This document shows positions 53,431-62,593 of a stretch of DNA of 64,000 nucleotides, piece by piece. Position numbers and translations under genes: made by a program. Position 1 is the stretch's first letter; every line of letters begins with the position of its first letter. The DNA comes from Anaerolineae bacterium (GTDB lineage Bacteria > Chloroflexota > Anaerolineae > Aggregatilineales > Phototrophicaceae): NCBI GenBank assembly GCA_019912965.1, contig JAIOHM010000205.1, positions 62,001 through 126,000 of the forward strand, written 5' to 3'. The notes below the pieces were generated by a model. It searched no databases. It was not told where the DNA came from and saw nothing but the letters and a program-made list of their open reading frames with translations.

Positions 53431-54846
53431 TTATCCGCCGGCAGCAATACCCTGAATGCCGCCTTCAGTCATCGCACGGGCATCCAATGCTTTGCTGGCT
53501 TCTTCTTCGGTCATGTAGCCAAGATCAACTACAATTTCCTTGATGCTCCGGTCTTCCGCCAGCGATTTCTTGGCAACTTCCGCACCCTTTTGATACCCAA
53601 TCACAGGGTTAAGCGCTGTCACCAGAATTGGATTTTTCGCCAACCAACCTTCAGCTTTTTCGCGGTTAGCAACCAGACCGACCACACATTTCTCGGTAAA
53701 AGCCCGCACTGCCCCAATCATGACATGCATCGACTCGAACAAATTGTGAGCGATGATTGGCATCATTACATTCAACTCAAGCTGCCCGGCCTGCCCCGCC
53801 AGTGTTACAGTCAGGTCATTACCCATAATGTGGAACATCGCCATATTCAACATCTCTGCCATCACCGGATTTACCTTACCCGGCATGATGGATGAACCCG
53901 GCTGCACTGGAGGGCATGTTAATTCGGCCAATCCGGTCGTCGGCCCGCTCGAAAGCAAACGAATATCATTGGCAATGCGGATAAAGTCCTGCGCTGCTGT
54001 CTTAATGGCGCTAGAGATAAACACAGCATCCTGCATTGACTGCATCGACTCAAACAGATCATCCGACTCATACAAGGTCAGTCCGCTCAATTGACTAAGT
54101 TTCTTGACCATCCGGGAATGGTATTCAGGGTGAGCATTCAGTCCAGTACCATTGGCTGTGCCACCAATACCCAGACGCCTCACGCTTTCCGCTGCTTGTT
54201 TGATTTTCTCAATATCGCGCTCAATCGCCTTTGCCCAACCACCCACTTCTTGACCCAGACGAATCGGTACTGCATCCTGTAAATGAGTACGTCCGCTCTT
54301 AGTGATCTCATCCCATTCTTTGGATTTGGCTCTGAAGGCGTCGACGCACGCTTGGAGGGTATTCACCAATTCATCAAAACGCCACAATGCACCCAAACGG
54401 ATTGCTGTCGGGATCGTATCATTGGTGCTCTGTGCCATGTTCACATGATCGTTGGGATTGACTGGTTTTTTGGCATCATCCAATTTGTAACCCAGAATTT
54501 CATTAGCGCGGTTGGCAATCACCTCATTGGTATTCATGTTATGACTGGTGCCCGCCCCTGCCTGGAATGGATCAACCACAAACTGGGCGTTATGCGTCCC
54601 CGCTAAAACTTCATCTGCCGCCTGCATAATGGCTTTTGCCATTTGTTCGTCTAACAGCCCCAAATCAAGATGCACTTCCGCTGCTGCCCGCTTAATAATT
54701 GCCATTGACCAGATAAAAGCCGGATAGGGCTTCAAACCACTCACAGGGAAGTTATCAACCGCACGCTGCGTTTGTGCGCCATAATAAGCATTCGCAGGCA
54801 CATTTACCGGGCCAAGCGAATCTTTTTCAACACGAAATTCCACCAT
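53431..54846 (-). CDS. Class II fumarase / aspartase family lyase
   Basis: A 471-residue protein from ATG 54846 (AAGGAG 10 bases upstream). The superfamily signature GSSIMPGKVNP is intact, as are AGTSHNMNTNEV, NDHVNMAQSTNDT and SGRTHLQDA. Motifs are mixed: THLQDA and GIGGTANGTGLN are fumarase-like, while VNPVMAEMLN, GNDLTVTLAGQAGQLELNVM and FTEKCVVGL resemble aspartase. So it makes either L-malate from fumarate or fumarate from aspartate; I slightly favour fumarase by its full length and catalytic His. It is alone, between the kinase and SOD. Confidence 0.85.
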   Translation of the reverse strand: MVEFRVEKDSLGPVNVPANAYYGAQTQRAVDNFPVSGLKPYPAFIWSMAIIKRAAAEVHLDLGLLDEQMAKAIMQAADEVLAGTHNAQFVVDPFQAGAGTSHNMNTNEVIANRANEILGYKLDDAKKPVNPNDHVNMAQSTNDTIPTAIRLGALWRFDELVNTLQACVDAFRAKSKEWDEITKSGRTHLQDAVPIRLGQEVGGWAKAIERDIEKIKQAAESVRRLGIGGTANGTGLNAHPEYHSRMVKKLSQLSGLTLYESDDLFESMQSMQDAVFISSAIKTAAQDFIRIANDIRLLSSGPTTGLAELTCPPVQPGSSIMPGKVNPVMAEMLNMAMFHIMGNDLTVTLAGQAGQLELNVMMPIIAHNLFESMHVMIGAVRAFTEKCVVGLVANREKAEGWLAKNPILVTALNPVIGYQKGAEVAKKSLAEDRSIKEIVVDLGYMTEEEASKALDARAMTEGGIQGIAAGG

Positions 54847-55017
54847 AATTTTAATTCTCCTTACGCCGCTTGTGGCGCGTGATTCACACTGATTGTACTG
54901 CCAGATAGCAGTATCCATACAAAAGACGGGATGAATTGTAACGCTTTTCACCATCTCCTGCGATTATCTATGCCAGATTGCTATGAATAATCCTGACAAT
55001 ATCTGTGCAAAATAAAA

Positions 55018-55035
55018 GGGGCGATCACTCGCCCC
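55018..55035 (-). terminator. Terminator of the superoxide dismutase gene
   Basis: GGGGCGA (55018-55024) pairs with TCGCCCC (55029-55035); on the minus strand the stem is followed by TTTTATTTT. Confidence 0.85.
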
Positions 55036-55064
55036 CCTTAGCTTTATATCGTAATTTGCGAGGC

Positions 55065-55679
55065 TTATTTTGCCTTCGCGTACAGTTCCGCCACCTTATC
55101 CCAATTAACCACATTCCACCATGCAGCCACATAATCCGGACGGCGGTTCTGGTAATTCAGATAGTAGGCATGTTCCCACACATCCAAGCCGAGAATCGGC
55201 GTCTTGCCTTCCATGACTGGAGTATCCTGGTTCGGGGTAGAAGTAATGCTCACCGCCCCGCCCTTTTCAGCAATCAGCCATGCCCAACCAGAGCCAAAAC
55301 GTCCAGCAGCAGCCGCTGCGAACTTCTCTTTGAATCCAGCAAAGTCGCCAAAAGCTGCGTTAATGGCTGCTGCCACATCACCAGTAGGTTGACCACCTTT
55401 ACCCGGCCCCATCAGTTGCCAGAACAGGCTGTGGTTAGCGTGACCGCCGCCATTATTGCGAACGGCTGTCTTAATGGCATCCGGCACAATCGCCAGATTA
55501 TTTGCCAGCAATTCTTCAAGGCTCTTACCCTGAAGATCAGCGTGGCCTTCCAGCGCTTTATTCAAATTAGTGACGTAAGCGTTGTGGTGCTTACCATGAT
55601 GAATTTCCATCGTGCGGGTATCAATGTGGGGTTCGAGCGCGTCAAAAGCATAGGGCAAGCTCGGTAATTCAAAAGGCAT
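55065..55679 (-). CDS. sodA: Superoxide dismutase, Mn/cambialistic type
   Basis: A 204-residue protein of the Fe/Mn SOD family from ATG 55679 (AAGGAG 7 bases upstream). Metal ligands: His in [12 protein letters not shown], His in [10 protein letters not shown], and Asp and His in [19 protein letters not shown]. The Gly-Gly before HANHS and a Gln in PNQDTPVM favour Mn or mixed-metal use over Fe. No signal peptide, so cytoplasmic. It is transcribed alone, ending at the preceding terminator. Confidence 0.94.
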
Positions 55680-55901
55680 GATTTGTCTCCTTCGCAATAG
55701 CGGATTAAGCCACCTGATTCTAGCGCAGGCCGAGCAGCTTTCAAAACTGGCCTTTGGTACAGAACTGTGGCACTAGCCTTCCATCCTCGGAAGCAGGTAT
55801 GCTATAGAAAGCATAAGCCAGCCGGACAAGCATAACATCGGTATTGGATTAACCCATGATGAGAAGCCCGGTATAAACTCAATCTTTCTCCGGTCAAATA
55901 C

Positions 55902-56837
55902 ATGTCAAATTCCAAGATTAGCACGGCGTCATCCGTTCGAACGCCGCTGCAAGCATATGTTGTGATTGCAATGGGCGTGCTGGCCGTATCGCTGGCCGCC
56001 ATTTTTATTCGTTTGGCCCAAAACGAGGGCATTCCATCTCTTTTTATCGCTGCTGCCCGGATGACAATCGCGTCACTGGTACTGACACCCTTTACACTTC
56101 GCCGTCATAGTCAGGAGATCCGCAATCTACATCGGCCAGAACTCATTCTGGCCGGAGTTTCCGGTATCTTTCTGGCCGCACATTTTGCAACTTGGATTCT
56201 CTCACTGGAATATACCAGCGTACTCATCAGCGTTGTGCTGGTAAACAGCAATCCATTATGGGTTGCCGTGCTGGAAGTATTTTTCCTGCGTGCCCAATTA
56301 GGTCGATGGGTCATCATTGGTTTACTCATTGGGATCGTCGGCAGCATCATTGTCGCCATCCCGCCAACCGGAGCAGTTGAAAGCGGTAGCAATCCCCTTC
56401 TGGGCGTTTTCCTGGCAATCAGCGGGGCGATCACAGTTGCGGTTTATTTCGTCATTGGGCGTAAGCTGCGTGGCAAGCTCTCGCTACTGCCATACATCTG
56501 GATGGTTTATGGCTGCTCTGCAATTGTTCTATTAGGTGTGGTATTTTTTGCACGTATTCCCATTGTCGGCTACAGCATAGAAGGCTACTTTTATTTGGTC
56601 GCAATGGCGCTGGTGCCACAGTTAATTGGGCATTCCTCCTTCAATTATGTTCTGAAATACTTCCCAGCCACCTATGTTGGCATTGCTGTTCAGCTTGAAC
56701 CTGCTTTCAGCGCCATCATTGCTTTTTTCCTGTTTCAGGAAATCCCCCTTCCATTCCAAATCTTAGGAAGCGCCGTTATTTTGGCAGGAGTTGTCCTCGC
56801 CAGCTTGGGGCAAGCGCGTTCGCAGCCATCTTCATAG
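55902..56837 (+). CDS. EamA/DMT-family transporter
   Basis: A 311-residue membrane protein with ten helices made of two EamA repeats, the layout of drug/metabolite transporters. Segments FIRLAQNEGIPSLFIAAARM, LEYTSVLISVVLVNSNPLWVA and a closing LGSAVILAGVVLASLG are family hallmarks. A close relative follows after 7 bases, so they are a tandem pair and could form a heterodimer or be a duplication. Substrate is unknown; amino acids and metabolites are common in the family. Confidence 0.88.
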   Translation: MSNSKISTASSVRTPLQAYVVIAMGVLAVSLAAIFIRLAQNEGIPSLFIAAARMTIASLVLTPFTLRRHSQEIRNLHRPELILAGVSGIFLAAHFATWILSLEYTSVLISVVLVNSNPLWVAVLEVFFLRAQLGRWVIIGLLIGIVGSIIVAIPPTGAVESGSNPLLGVFLAISGAITVAVYFVIGRKLRGKLSLLPYIWMVYGCSAIVLLGVVFFARIPIVGYSIEGYFYLVAMALVPQLIGHSSFNYVLKYFPATYVGIAVQLEPAFSAIIAFFLFQEIPLPFQILGSAVILAGVVLASLGQARSQPSS

Positions 56838-56844
56838 GAGTCAT

Positions 56845-57765
56845 ATGTCGAAAGTACAGGCCATTACACACAGCATTTCCCCTTGGCGCAATCAGATAAT
56901 GCTGCTCATCGCGGTATTCGCTGGCGCGTGGGCACCCATCTTTGGTCGCATCGCGCAAAAAGAGCATATTCCGACAACAGTCATCATCGCCTTCCGTCTG
57001 GTCGTTGGAGCATTGGTATTTACTCCCATTGTCCTCAACTACTATAAGCCAGAGCTTCGCAAACTCACGCGGCGACAAATTTTGTTTGGTGCTGGGGCAG
57101 GAATCTGGATGGCAATTCATCTGATACTGGGGTTCACATCGCTGGAGCACACCAGTGTGCTGGTAAGCAGCGTTTTGGGAGGCACATCCCCAATTTGGAT
57201 TGCGTTGATTGAAGTCCGCATTCTAAAAGTGCGCATGAGTCATCTGGTTTGGTTTGGCTTAATGGCTACCTTTACAGGTGGTCTTATTATCGCATTATCA
57301 AGCACAGGTGATTTCAGTCTGGGGGATAATCCTGGCCTTGGAATCTTCCTTTCAATCATCTCGGCTTTCGCGGGCGCAATCTATATCATTCTCGGGCGCC
57401 AATCACGCAATGGGATACCTTTCCTGCCCTATCTATGGATGGTTTTTACCTTCGGGGCCATTTTCACGATGATCGTAGTTGTCGCTACTGGAGCGCCAGT
57501 CATCGGCTATAGCAGTGAGGGTTATTTTGCATTGACTATGCTCATATTGCTGCCCCAACTGATCGGCCACACTATTTTTAACTACGTTCTGCGTTCCCTT
57601 TCCGCCACCTATGTAAGCGTTGTAGGTCAGTTAGGCGTCATCATGGCGGCTATTCTGGCTTTTTTCCTGTTTCAGGAAATCCCCGCCGCATTACAACTAC
57701 CGGGCAGCATCGCTATTATTATTGGAATCACACTGGTTAATTTAGGACAGACCAAATCAGATTGA
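56845..57765 (+). CDS. EamA/DMT-family transporter, second copy
   Basis: A 306-residue, ten-helix relative of the preceding gene: it shares EHTSVLVSSVLGGTSPIWIA, SAFAGAIYIILGR, PVIGYSSEGYF and AFFLFQEIP with corresponding segments of the first. ATG 56845 lies 4 bases after AGGAG, which overlaps the end of the upstream gene. The next gene, a GH38-like relic, starts one base after this stop, so all three are one operon. Confidence 0.88.
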   Translation: MSKVQAITHSISPWRNQIMLLIAVFAGAWAPIFGRIAQKEHIPTTVIIAFRLVVGALVFTPIVLNYYKPELRKLTRRQILFGAGAGIWMAIHLILGFTSLEHTSVLVSSVLGGTSPIWIALIEVRILKVRMSHLVWFGLMATFTGGLIIALSSTGDFSLGDNPGLGIFLSIISAFAGAIYIILGRQSRNGIPFLPYLWMVFTFGAIFTMIVVVATGAPVIGYSSEGYFALTMLILLPQLIGHTIFNYVLRSLSATYVSVVGQLGVIMAAILAFFLFQEIPAALQLPGSIAIIIGITLVNLGQTKSD

Positions 57766-57766
57766 T

Positions 57767-58948
57767 ATGACCGTCACCCATCTCATTCCGTTACTACCGT
57801 CACTGCTAAAACCAAATGTATCATTGGAAACAGCGCGGTTAAATTGGTTGCCATTATTCGACGCTGTACTGAATGCATTGGAATCTCCTGGTAGCTTACA
57901 AATCGCCAGTTTATCCGATAATGCATCGCTAGAACTTTACCTGCAACTTCGCCCGGAACGGTATGAGCAAATCGAACGACTGACCTCAAAAGGCAAATTA
58001 TGCCTGTCGCCCTGGTATGTTCAACCTAATGAACCTATATTGAATAATCTCGAAGCAGTCATTCGCAATCTCGGTTTAGGTCTATCCATCGCTGCGACTT
58101 TCGGGCAAAAACCTGCTTCATGTTTACTGACTACAAAAAGATTATCACCTCAGTTGCCTCAATTGTTACACGGTGTGGGGATCCAAGGACTGACACTTCC
58201 ATCTGCTAAAGAAAATCTGCGGCAAAATATCTGGCGCGCGTCAGATGGAACACCTATCACCATTAGTTCCATTTTTAGGTCGGATGATATATTTGACCAA
58301 TCAGCTAATCACATTCCAATTGTGTATCCCTTGAGTAGTCCGACTTCAATCACAGGGATACATGAAATCAGCCGACGCCCCAACACATTGCAAAGCAATT
58401 TAGATAACTACTTCAGCGCACTGAGCCACGAAAAAAATCTGCCTGAATGGACTCCCCCATTGGCGCCCGATTTCGCTGAAACGGCTTCAGTATTCAAGCG
58501 GCTAATGACGATTGAATATACACTTGCTGCCGCTTATCTACAACACAACTTTCCCCTGCCCCATCCAGCAGAAATCTTGCGTTATGCATGGCGACAAGCA
58601 TTTATCAATGCCCCCAGCGATATCATATCTGCGCTGGAGTCAATTACTGAGAATCAAATCGGGGTAACTGCGGATGTATACCCCGATCTTTTAGCCTTCA
58701 ACAATCCCGGTTTCCGACTCATCACCCTCAAGCAACCAGCAGACGGATCAGATGGCATTATCATACGTGGAGAAAATTTGACCAGTCAGAATCAGCCGCT
58801 TGTTATCACGAGCCCTCATCCATTTATACAAGCGCGACAAGTTGATTTATTTGAGCAACCTTCAGGTCAAACCTGTTTACCTGACTCCAACGGTGCATTT
58901 CGCTTTCGGCTTACTCCAAATCAAATTATCACTCTGCATCTGAAATAG
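57767..58948 (+). CDS. Vestigial GH38 (alpha-mannosidase-like) protein lacking catalytic residues
   Basis: A 393-residue protein that lines up with the family GH38 N-terminal barrel and C-terminal strands but is less than half the usual length. Shared parts: LYLQLRPERYEQIERL, GKLCLSPWYVQPNE, a G-x-F-G turn, LPQLLHGVGIQG and WRASDGTPITI. The N-terminal zinc motif HTHWD is LLPSL here (residues 9-13), and the nucleophile-bearing D-S-F-G is K124-R-L-S127. The C-terminal ~60 residues keep the beta-sandwich end. So it is probably not an active glycosidase. It is one base downstream of the EamA pair. Base use looks more AT-rich than most neighbours. Confidence 0.6.
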   Translation: MTVTHLIPLLPSLLKPNVSLETARLNWLPLFDAVLNALESPGSLQIASLSDNASLELYLQLRPERYEQIERLTSKGKLCLSPWYVQPNEPILNNLEAVIRNLGLGLSIAATFGQKPASCLLTTKRLSPQLPQLLHGVGIQGLTLPSAKENLRQNIWRASDGTPITISSIFRSDDIFDQSANHIPIVYPLSSPTSITGIHEISRRPNTLQSNLDNYFSALSHEKNLPEWTPPLAPDFAETASVFKRLMTIEYTLAAAYLQHNFPLPHPAEILRYAWRQAFINAPSDIISALESITENQIGVTADVYPDLLAFNNPGFRLITLKQPADGSDGIIIRGENLTSQNQPLVITSPHPFIQARQVDLFEQPSGQTCLPDSNGAFRFRLTPNQIITLHLK

Positions 58949-58958
58949 AGAATATATC

Positions 58959-60695
58959 TTAACCCAATTTGAATCCCAGATAATCCGAAGTACCCGGCCA
59001 GATACCAAAAGCCGGAATTTCTTCTGGAAGCATTACAGGCGTCAACAGTGATTGCAATGTGCCATTCCGTGCCAACTCTTGCAGTGAGTACTCCACAAGT
59101 AAGCGGAAATCAATATCATTTCGCGGCACAGCTATGCCAACCCATGTACGGTTGTACCAAGGATCAGGATTGTTGCCGCGTACACTTAAGCGCAGCAAAT
59201 CCGGGTTAGTCTGCACATGAGGAATTAATTTCAAGCTGTCGCCAAAAACCACTAGTGCATTCTGACTATCCAGAATTTCGAGCGCCGCGTCCTGCTCCCG
59301 ATTAATAGTAAAAATGCGCACACCAGAACTAACACTTTCTGCCAGTGCGTTCACGCGATCAGCCACGCCCGGCTCACTGGCGAAGATACCCACCACTCGC
59401 CCGCGCAAGTCGATAAATGTCTCGTAATCATCGTTCTTCTTTACCATCAACCGATCACCATGTAGAAAATATGGTGCGGTTAGGTCAACCCGATCCGTGT
59501 ATGACCAATCCAGCGGAATACCTACCGCCAAATCAGCCTGACCACTGGCAACGAGATCAACTGCATTGGTGACACTATTAGGAATATATTCAACTTGCAT
59601 ACCCCACAACGTAACCAATGCTTCAATGATGGCGCGATTAAGTACGTCCAACCGTCGTTCACTCTCTGGCACATCAACAGAAACATCTGTGATCCCAGCT
59701 ACACGAACTACACCGCTGGATTGAATACGCGGAAGTGCGTATTGTGATGGATACGGCACATCGGCGGGAAACTGGTCAGGCTTTGGGGCATCATCGCCTA
59801 TGCCTGCCCAGATCGGCACCAGATCAAGCGGATAAATCGTCCCAAAATAAGCCTGCTGAATCTCCTGCATTCGCCCTTTACGAACCAGATACTGAAGTGT
59901 CTTATTAATCAGGTTGCGCCAGTTTACATCCTGACGACGCACTACTACTGCTAGTGGTTCAGTTCCAACTGACTCATCTAGTACACGAGCCGTCCCTTGC
60001 TGAGACAAAACCACTGTAAACTGAATCCGATTTGCGACAACACCATCTACTTCGTTGTTCACTAGCGCCGTAATTGCCTGATCAAGCGTAAGATACTGTT
60101 GAACAGTCACACCGATTCCGCTGCGTCCCTGCCACAGCCCAATAGCCTCTGCGCTTGGGGTTGCCAGGACATAGCCCACGCGACGGTTCGCCATATCAGC
60201 TAACAGTACTGCAGCATCATCCTGCCGCACCAACATCACCTGACTACCCGAATAATAAGTCAGACTGAATTCCACCTGTGCATCTAAATCCCGTCGATGC
60301 ACCTGTGATGCAACCAGCATATCCACTGCGCCAACTTTAAGCGCATCCAATGCTGTTTGCCGTGTCACCTGAACAGGTTCGAATGTCACCCCCCAGGCTT
60401 CTGCCATGCTACGTGCCAGATCAGCATCATAACCAGCAACTTCACCCCGAACATTTAATTCGCCAAACGGTGGTGCATTATAGAGCAACCCAACACGCAC
60501 TCTTCCATCTTGCTGGACACGCGCCAAACCAGACTCGCTGAGCAGTGCATCACTGACGCCTGCATCCTGAGTCGGTACTAGTGTTGGCGGCACAAGAGTA
60601 GGAACGGGTTGCCTAAGCATATCCGCCGAAAACGAAATCGAGACACCAACAAACAGCAAACTCAAAACGAGAAAACTGAGAAGCATCCGTTTCAT
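58959..60695 (-). CDS. Tandem family-3 extracellular solute-binding protein
   Basis: A 578-residue secreted protein. A signal peptide (~1-24) and a Pro/Thr/Leu spacer lead to two consecutive SBP_bac_3 domains: ~60-295 (GRVRVGLLYNAPPFGEL, GYDADLARSMAEAWG, VDMLVAS) and ~328-560 (GVVRVAGITDVS, VDLVASGQADLAVG, TAPYFLHGDRLMV). This fold binds amino acids or similar small ligands. There is no ABC permease or ATPase gene near it, so it is an orphan; it may serve a distant transporter or a sensory role. It ends 10 bases from the convergent GH38-like gene and its start is 3 bases from the end of nadD. Confidence 0.85.
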   Translation of the reverse strand: MKRMLLSFLVLSLLFVGVSISFSADMLRQPVPTLVPPTLVPTQDAGVSDALLSESGLARVQQDGRVRVGLLYNAPPFGELNVRGEVAGYDADLARSMAEAWGVTFEPVQVTRQTALDALKVGAVDMLVASQVHRRDLDAQVEFSLTYYSGSQVMLVRQDDAAVLLADMANRRVGYVLATPSAEAIGLWQGRSGIGVTVQQYLTLDQAITALVNNEVDGVVANRIQFTVVLSQQGTARVLDESVGTEPLAVVVRRQDVNWRNLINKTLQYLVRKGRMQEIQQAYFGTIYPLDLVPIWAGIGDDAPKPDQFPADVPYPSQYALPRIQSSGVVRVAGITDVSVDVPESERRLDVLNRAIIEALVTLWGMQVEYIPNSVTNAVDLVASGQADLAVGIPLDWSYTDRVDLTAPYFLHGDRLMVKKNDDYETFIDLRGRVVGIFASEPGVADRVNALAESVSSGVRIFTINREQDAALEILDSQNALVVFGDSLKLIPHVQTNPDLLRLSVRGNNPDPWYNRTWVGIAVPRNDIDFRLLVEYSLQELARNGTLQSLLTPVMLPEEIPAFGIWPGTSDYLGFKLG

Positions 60696-60698
60696 AGA

Positions 60699-61337
60699 TT
60701 ATTTTCCGTACAATTGGTTGGTTTCAATGTAGGCACGTACAACTTCAGGCACAAGGTAACGAATACTGTATCCTGCCTCAAGTCGTTCCGTAATTTGAGT
60801 GGAAGAAATATCGATTAGCGGCGCATCCAGCATCACCACCCGCGCCGCCAAGCCCGGAAGCACAGTTTCATGCATATCAGATCGCACATCATCATCAGGT
60901 CGCCGCATCACAGCTAACTTACAATGTTGAATAAAATCTGCTGGACGATACCACTTTGGCAGCCCACGCAGCGAGTCTCCACCCATCACAAAGAATAATT
61001 CCGCCTGTGGAAATTGTTCTTTGACGATTTGTACCATATCCAACGAATAATGCGGGCCTGGACGATCAATATCGATACGAGATACGGTAAAGCGTTCATT
61101 ACCCGCCAATGCCCGCTCAAGCATTGCTAATCGATGTATAACAGGCAGTTTGAACTCATCTTGTTTATGAGGAGGATCAGCCGCTGGAACGAACAAAACC
61201 TGCGAAAGCGCCAGCGCATCAGCAGCATATTCCCCCAGAATCAGATGTCCAAGATGTGGAGGGTCAAATGTACCTCCTAAAATGCCGATTCGTTCCATCA
61301 CAACATCGGCCATACCAATGCTCGTTACTCTGACCAT
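60699..61337 (-). CDS. nadD: Nicotinate-nucleotide adenylyltransferase
   Basis: A 212-residue or slightly shorter enzyme of NAD synthesis (NaMN + ATP to NaAD). The nucleotidyltransferase loop GGTFDPPHLGH is complete, with FVPAADPPHKQ and FFVMGGDSL following. The second signature ISSTxIR reads ISSTQIT, so its conserved Arg is Thr. The start is uncertain: ATG 61337 overlaps obg by 13 bases; ATG 61313 (MADVVM) and ATG 61298 (MERIGI) are also in frame and none has a strong ribosome site. It is co-transcribed with obg, as often in bacteria. Confidence 0.92.
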   Translation of the reverse strand: MVRVTSIGMADVVMERIGILGGTFDPPHLGHLILGEYAADALALSQVLFVPAADPPHKQDEFKLPVIHRLAMLERALAGNERFTVSRIDIDRPGPHYSLDMVQIVKEQFPQAELFFVMGGDSLRGLPKWYRPADFIQHCKLAVMRRPDDDVRSDMHETVLPGLAARVVMLDAPLIDISSTQITERLEAGYSIRYLVPEVVRAYIETNQLYGK

Positions 61338-62593
61338 TCCAGTTCATAGTCACCAATAAAAACAGTATCACCAACCTGAACCCCAGCCTGTTGCAGAGCA
61401 GATGAAATACCAAGCGTCTCCAAAATATTCTGGAAACGAAGTACCGCATCCTCATAATCCCAATGAGTCATAATGGCTGCACGTTCGATACGTTTCCCCG
61501 AAACACGATAGATACCATCGCTCTCGCGCTGAACAGTAAATGGCACTTCGACTTCTGGCAGTTCATAGATCGGTATCGTCTCGGATGTAGGTGCAGGTAC
61601 TTGCTCAGGTAGTGACGATACAACCTGAAAAATACGCTGAGTCAGGCTGCGAACATTGGTCTGTGTTGCGGCTGAAATTGCCATTGGCTCAACACCTCTG
61701 GCCTTCAGTTCTTTCTCAACCTCCGGCCAACGCATCTGTGCCTCTGGCAAATCCATTTTGGTAAAGATGACAATCTGAGGTTTTTCCGCTAAATGCTCAT
61801 CAAACAATGCCAGTTCAGTATTAATCTGGCTGTAGTCAGCCATGGGTGTTTCGCTCGCACCGTTAATAAGATGCACCAACACCCGCGTTCGTTGGACGTG
61901 GCGCAGGAATGAATGCCCTAAACCAACGCCCATATGTGCGCCTTCGATTAGCCCCGGAATATCTGCTGCAACCAAATCACGATCATCATAAGTCATTACG
62001 CCTAGGTTAGGTTCAAGTGTGGTAAACGGGTAATCGGCTATCTTCGGTTTGGCGTTGCTGATAACGGAAAGCAGGGTGGATTTTCCCGCATTAGGCATTC
62101 CCACCAAGCCAACATCAGCAATCAATTTCAACTCCAAAACAAGCCACTTTTCCTCACCCGGCTCACCCTTCTCGGCCATTCGGGGTGATTGGTTCGACGA
62201 CGTTGCAAAATGTTGGTTGCCACGTCCACCACGCCCACCACGAGCAATAACAATTTGGTCATCGGGCCGCACCAAATCAACAATGACCGTTCCAGTCTCA
62301 GCGTCTTTAACTACTGTTCCAGGTGGTACTTCCACTTCTAGTGTATTGGCGCTTAGGCCGCTCATATTTTTGCCGCCACCACGTTCGCCATGCTTGGCCT
62401 TAAAGTGGATACCTTTCTTGAATGGTGCGAGTGTATTGATCTTGGGATTAACCTTGAGAATTACATCGCCACCGCGCCCACCATCACCACCCGCAGGACC
62501 ACCACGCGGCATAAACTTCTCGCGCAAGAAAGCGACAATGCCATCGCCACCATCGCCACTGCGAACATAAATCTTTACTTCATCGAACATCAC
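61325..62593 (-). CDS. obg: GTPase Obg/CgtA
   Basis: A 422-residue ribosome-assembly GTPase. The Gly-rich Obg fold covers ~1-158 (SGDGGDGIVAFLREKF, GGDGGRGG). G-domain motifs: GMPNAGKST, ADIPGLIEGA, FTKMD and SAAT. The C-terminal OCT domain (~350-422) is present, ending VGDTVFIGDYELEW. nadD follows with a short overlap or gap. The gene starts 64 bases after the SDR stop and shares its strand. Confidence 0.96.
   Translation of the reverse strand: MMFDEVKIYVRSGDGGDGIVAFLREKFMPRGGPAGGDGGRGGDVILKVNPKINTLAPFKKGIHFKAKHGERGGGKNMSGLSANTLEVEVPPGTVVKDAETGTVIVDLVRPDDQIVIARGGRGGRGNQHFATSSNQSPRMAEKGEPGEEKWLVLELKLIADVGLVGMPNAGKSTLLSVISNAKPKIADYPFTTLEPNLGVMTYDDRDLVAADIPGLIEGAHMGVGLGHSFLRHVQRTRVLVHLINGASETPMADYSQINTELALFDEHLAEKPQIVIFTKMDLPEAQMRWPEVEKELKARGVEPMAISAATQTNVRSLTQRIFQVVSSLPEQVPAPTSETIPIYELPEVEVPFTVQRESDGIYRVSGKRIERAAIMTHWDYEDAVLRFQNILETLGISSALQQAGVQVGDTVFIGDYELEWSE

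Follow-up and report, generated by a model that had tools for sequence, protein, structure and literature searches.

What becomes of a glycosidase gene whose protein has lost its active site and more than half its length: does it decay, or does it persist in another role? We asked this of an open reading frame in a 64,000-nucleotide stretch of Anaerolineae DNA, called the window below. The original prediction, made from the letters alone, had read the frame as a GH38-like protein that seemed to be maintained, was coupled to two EamA transporters and could be a sugar-binding pseudoenzyme. At a probability of roughly 0.72, we favor a reading in which the product is retained as a GH38 derivative without catalysis, one that works through its folded surface and neither cleaves mannosides nor binds them in the former pocket.

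The ORF list and Pfam place a tandem EamA pair directly upstream of the gene, whose ATG lies one base past the stop of the second permease (Table 1). The frame is open throughout its 393 aa, as predicted, and the protein is indeed under half the length of the ordinary GH38s of the same order (900-1000 aa). Locus genes other than EamA and GH38, including NadD, Obg, FumC and SOD, carry presumptive names based on their sequences. The chain with two apparent binding-protein-type domains at the downstream side is present in 144 of the 154 genomes of the order, and wherever the locus was read it has NadD and Obg next to it.

Table 1. Positions within the window of the pseudoenzyme gene, its altered motifs and its neighbors.
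Feature	Positions	Strand	Basis or role
Short GH38-derived pseudoenzyme gene, 393 aa	57767..58948	+	ORF, Pfam, PDB sequence matches, predicted fold, alignment
Codons 11-13, P-S-L, in place of H-W-D of HTHWD (presumed Zn ligands His, Asp)	57797..57805	+	alignment columns
Codons 123-127, T-K-R-L-S, in place of the D-x-F-G nucleophile motif	58133..58147	+	alignment columns
Codons 284-286, S-D-I, in place of H-D-S of HPHDS (presumed third Zn ligand, His)	58616..58624	+	alignment columns
EamA permease 1, 311 aa, candidate partner at the ancestral locus	55902..56837	+	ORF, Pfam
EamA permease 2	56845..57765	+	Pfam; likely ATG 56845 behind AGGAG
Two periplasmic-binding-type domains in one protein	58959..60695	-	read from sequence; flanking marker of the conserved locus
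NadD and Obg genes (presumptive names)	60699..62593	-	further markers of the conserved locus
FumC and SOD genes (presumptive names)	53431..55697	-	markers of the conserved locus, opposite flank

The claimed GH38 origin was recovered by several sequence comparisons, which together rule out a chance resemblance. Pfam placed GH38C2 at residues 317-390 of the protein (E 9.1e-9), the top PDB sequence matches were GH38 alpha-mannosidases (E 4.3e-6), and hhalign of a ten-member short-orthologue profile with ten ordinary GH38s returned a probability of 99.9 (E 1.3e-34, columns 6-309). The only NCBIfam match was to mannosylglycerate hydrolase (PRK09819 / NF007331) over residues 32-168 (E 3.3e-13), at 48.4 bits against a curated cut-off of 1138 bits that the protein does not reach. 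Pfam gave no match in the window protein to PF07748, the large central beta-sandwich.

Structure prediction agreed with this assignment. AlphaFold2, given a 37-row alignment, modeled the window protein with a mean pLDDT of 91.0 and a pTM of 0.91; the first 36 rows of a Foldseek search against the PDB were all GH38 enzymes (top E 3.6e-16), and VIA-align placed 374 of the 393 residues on 5kbp_A (Z 33.6, rmsd 3.3), spanning chain residues 3-895, with the highest non-GH38 structure row at Z 17.7. Because seven alignment rows carry GH38 motifs (six whole, one, G041, partial), the predicted fold does not prove kinship independently, as the sequence comparisons do. The model contains the parts of a GH38 fold in order, an N-terminal A-domain remnant (~1-235), a helix bundle (~241-308) and a C-terminal beta-sandwich (~310-393), and the central beta-sandwich region of ~490 residues is gone. 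Measured against an ordinary GH38 (G045), the short proteins span most of residues 1-360 and the last 100, and residues 361 to ~850 have almost no counterpart. The whole-chain predicted fold is like that of the GH38 alpha-mannosidases and mannosylglycerate hydrolase (PRK09819; PDB 5kbp, 2wyh, 3lvt), but, unlike them, the protein has no zinc ligands, nucleophile, acid/base or central sandwich. It is probably cytosolic, judging from a model whose start already belongs to the first barrel strand and whose alignment to GH38 structures runs end to end (residues 1-393) with no extra segment; no transmembrane anchor is evident in it. A virus-like relative was also considered and rejected: among viral models, Foldseek found a single match below 1e-3, at the low TM-score of 0.19.

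We searched every one of the order's 154 genomes with a profile, sizing their families (f1-f8) by a count of kinship codes. The GH38-like gene, always without a working site, turned up in 22 of them. Short or intermediate forms occur in all 11 f7 genomes, in one of 10 f8 genomes and in two of 98 f1 genomes (the window genome and G101), and full-length forms in eight of nine f2 genomes; the search found the gene family in none of the 26 genomes of f3-f6. Five of the 22 members are cut at contig ends (G053, G055, G145, G146, G153). The order FumC-SOD / EamA / GH38-like / dual binding protein-NadD-Obg is common to f1, f2, f7 and f8, occurring completely or partially in the window and G101, in six f2 genomes plus G055, in G148 and G146 (f7) and in G078 (f8), and the interval between EamA and the dual binding-protein gene is the ancestral site. 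In a class-wide search of 396 drawn genomes, only the window genome and G042 gave an end-to-end profile match among the matches listed, and 16 of 28 fetched loci carry ordinary GH38 motifs, whole or partial, the other 12 having been translated out of frame.

We therefore reject the possibility that the gene is a random decay fragment of the genome's own GH38s: orthologues recur in 22 of 154 genomes at a shared locus, the other GH38s of the genome (C98, C155) sit elsewhere, and the window protein clusters with syntenic orthologues of other families and not with the C155 GH38. The C98 GH38 was omitted from the trees because it is too distant.

Within the EamA-to-binding-protein interval the protein occurs at full length (745-896 aa), at an intermediate 585 aa and in a short version; apart from the intermediate, all complete short forms measure 393-453 aa. 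The f2 proteins have lost the catalytic residues and, by Pfam, have the N-terminal, C and C2 GH38 domains in six of six cases and the middle domain in five of six. The 585-aa protein (G147) retains residues 361 to ~540 and lacks most of the other central region, and G146, a contig-end fragment from the same genus, has the same partial central region; the G147 model (577 aa) reached a pLDDT of 88.9 and aligned 543 residues to 5kbp_B (Z 29.9). Short and f2 forms make one clade. Its support is 97/95 on 804 columns (four fragments or distant rows left out), and it is 98/96 once the deleted block and the catalytic neighborhoods are removed, leaving 406 columns (seven such rows left out). The window protein has a long branch. 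Since the intermediate branches first within f7, the last shortening may have occurred more than once.

A second, separate clade of full-length GH38-like proteins without catalytic residues (805-946 aa), which we call f1x, was found in f1; its loci (L089-L096, e.g. L090:30-2732 -, partial L034:3-1184 -, and L080) have almost no neighbors in common. All dead forms could share a single origin: short, f2 and f1x forms together with G041 lay on one side of a branch with support of 76/74, and without G041 the p-AU was 0.069. The f6 protein G041 (L116:869-3760 +) keeps HVRWD and DAFG and has lost both zinc histidines and the acid/base Asp; it is a half-eroded GH38 and possibly a transitional form.

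In GH38 enzymes the zinc ligands are the His and Asp of HTHWD, the Asp of DxFG and the His of HPHD; the acid/base column was identified from its invariance and GxDH context. In the alignment of all groups, the five columns taken as catalytic never vary among 16 ordinary GH38s, and the window protein retains none of these residues: it has P11 at the zinc His, L13 at the zinc Asp, T123 at the nucleophile, S190 at the acid/base Asp and S284 at the second zinc His (HPHD). The predicted losses of the zinc site, read from residues 5-13 against HLIPHTHWD, and of the nucleophile motif are confirmed. K124-R-L-S, offered in place of DSFG, comes after a one-residue gap that follows the nucleophile column, where K124 could be read instead of T123. 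PDB titles for Golgi mannosidase II cite a nucleophile D204 and an acid-base D341. No more than two of the five residues are kept in any of 14 short or intermediate, seven f2 and ten f1x rows: two in G150 and G044, one in G152 and in each of four f1x rows, with an Asp in the nucleophile column of the short G148 and in two catalytic columns of G149. Column counts leave out partial rows at contig ends and, from the ordinary set, G041 and G047a; the full-letter alignment shows every row and has G047a within its 16.

Zinc is the sugar-coordinating metal in GH38, and in the window protein it has no ligands. This bears on the suggestion of sugar binding, in which a protein or sensor would recognize mannosides in the former pocket without cleaving them. 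Its GH38 origin, its link with membrane transporters and the existence elsewhere of non-catalytic glycosidase-like proteins (PMC8537225) would suit such a role, which we nevertheless consider quite improbable: W23, R154, Y182, D222 and D343 (G045 numbering), invariant near the site in ordinary GH38s, are nearly all lost in the pseudo-forms with no common substitute, and the central sandwich region is absent. Because the substitute letters vary from protein to protein, the site is not conserved in a new form. Former active-site residues that are neither kept nor replaced by a shared one count against both mannose binding and a new chemistry in the pocket.

All 11 complete short rows and all 8 complete f1x rows have His as the fifth residue (57779-57781), a column that is mostly Thr in ordinary GH38s, and the H182, S210, P267, G335, F353 and G367 columns are also distinctive of pseudo-forms. 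Such columns, conserved in pseudo-forms and not in ordinary GH38s, are what an enzyme with a new reaction and an active site relocated on the same shell could leave behind, yet we hold this to be highly improbable. In the model H5 falls in the N-terminal half of strand 1, away from the place where we presume GH38 catalysis to occur; the conserved columns mostly look structural (Gly, Pro, Leu, Phe), and no known catalytic constellation was recognized among them.

If the pocket is not conserved, the remaining question is whether the protein as a whole is. Nei-Gojobori dN/dS, used throughout, gave values that are rough because dS is ~1 or more. G050 and G152, both full-length, differ with a ratio of 0.12 over 847 codons, similar to 0.19 for EamA and 0.13 for the binding protein of the same pair. 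Five pairs of f7 short forms among four species give 0.16-0.34 and the pair G042-G149 gives 0.29, against 0.09 for AlaS and 0.05 for the PspA-like neighbor. Given 0.12 in the full-length forms and 0.16-0.34 in the short ones, we conclude that purifying selection acts on the family, less strongly on its short forms. Synonymous sites between the window gene and G101, its nearest relative, are saturated, and that pair is hence without a ratio; the proportions changed at codon positions 1, 2 and 3 are 0.53, 0.38 and 0.68, highest at the third. With dS saturated and a long window branch, selection on the window copy itself is read from the family. At that level the original prediction that the protein "seems maintained" is upheld by its presence in 22 of 154 genomes, by intact frames and by ratios of 0.12-0.34 in the closest pairs, well below 1.

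Weaker selection also suits slow decay, in which catalysis, then domains and then the whole gene are lost, leaving a passive remainder of little function. Stepwise shrinkage, long branches, clean absence of the gene from most f1 genomes and short-form ratios laxer than those of the AlaS and PspA-like neighbors all agree with this course, and the gene is dispensable in f1, where two of 98 genomes keep it and 18 of 20 loci have EamA without it. We still regard decay as unlikely, since the gene is kept in all 11 f7 genomes, even after relocation to new loci, and in eight of nine f2 genomes, and since its fold is compact and modeled with high confidence, with scaffold residues (R62, E96, R100, W275, R334, T389) held in common with ordinary GH38s across families. 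No internal stop marks an inactivated copy among the matches listed, and when 40 intervals were searched by tblastn with 31 pseudo-form proteins, no remnant appeared at the locus, apart from one 31-residue match (E 0.007) taken as chance. At the moved loci no neighbor recurs beyond a few pairs, except AlaS, PspA-like and DtxR-like genes within one f7 genus. Candidate hidden homologues in the locus of congeners proved to be other genes: aminotransferase-like (G007) and helicase-like (G054) frames, both named by eye, an aldo/keto reductase (G008) and RlaP-like frames (G059). The corresponding stretch of G100 (L194:321-2801 -) carries an unrelated MGH1-like glycoside hydrolase of 827 aa near the binding-protein gene.

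We return, then, to a maintained pseudoenzyme, a term that the GH38 fold without catalytic residues and the family-level selection bear out. Constraint stays on the shell and the last beta-sandwich, not on the pocket, and points to a structural or surface-binding role. We infer that an ancestor in the EamA-to-dual-binding-protein interval would have been a full-length GH38-like protein whose zinc site and nucleophile were already lost; its lineage, freed of catalysis, would then have shed the central beta-sandwich region stepwise, from ~850 to 585 to ~400-450 aa, while the A-domain shell, the helix bundle and the last beta-sandwich stayed together in a single compact unit. Such a protein may function by protein-protein contact, as the non-catalytic partner of another protein. 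The succession of catalysis first and domains later is testable from extant proteins, because ordinary GH38s, dead forms of full length, intermediates (in two species) and short dead forms all occur within the order, several of them at one syntenic locus. Annotation by nearest family would name the window protein an alpha-mannosidase or mannosylglycerate hydrolase, which its residues contradict. In the full-text literature searched, which covers few subscription papers, we found no description of a GH38 pseudoenzyme and nothing on a catalytically inactive alpha-mannosidase of Chloroflexi, and the passages of a pseudoenzyme review (PMC10211241) do not mention a glycoside hydrolase. Among beetle plant-cell-wall-degrading enzymes, pseudoenzymes are reportedly driven by gene duplication in expanded families (PMC6549527); these likewise are members of carbohydrate-active families retained after catalysis was lost, whereas the dead GH38 form is a one-locus orthologue across families that later shed domains.

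What the partner might be is suggested by the neighborhood. An EamA gene adjoins the GH38-like gene in the window, G101, G148, G078 and every f2 locus that extends far enough. One EamA orthologue is present in all 11 f7 genomes, beside SOD in nine of 11 fetched stretches; the GH38-like gene is beside it in G148 only, and in eight of the 11 it lies elsewhere with the EamA orthologue still there. Twenty f1 loci were retrieved by their binding-protein end, and none has the GH38-like gene: 18 have EamA without it, one is cut by a contig end and one is without EamA in the stretch. The pair is ancestral, but the f7 and f1 loci show that neither gene requires the other beside it, so that the predicted coupling to two EamA transporters stands as an old adjacency in four families but not as a fixed one. 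EamA is the sole recurrent neighbor with an obvious functional tie and on that account our leading guess: tentatively, the permease encoded just upstream may be the partner, with the pseudoenzyme as its regulatory or stabilizing subunit.

The SLC3 proteins 4F2hc and rBAT, whose GH13-like ectodomains are subunits of amino-acid transporters (PMC8537225), offer an analogy. They too combine a glycosidase fold without catalytic residues with a transporter, a link suggested for the window gene by gene adjacency, but they belong to another GH family and fold and carry a transmembrane domain with the ectodomain outside the cell, whereas the window protein shows no membrane segment and its transporter is of the EamA type. 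By this analogy it might be a bacterial counterpart in kind: a soluble protein of the cytosol, derived from a glycosidase and serving EamA-type permeases (drug/metabolite transporter superfamily) as an accessory subunit. We regard this proposal as doubtful. Should the EamA link be real, a glycosidase fold would have been recruited independently to a membrane transporter here. At the SOD locus of related genomes, EamA copies number from one to four in tandem (L176, L188, L191).
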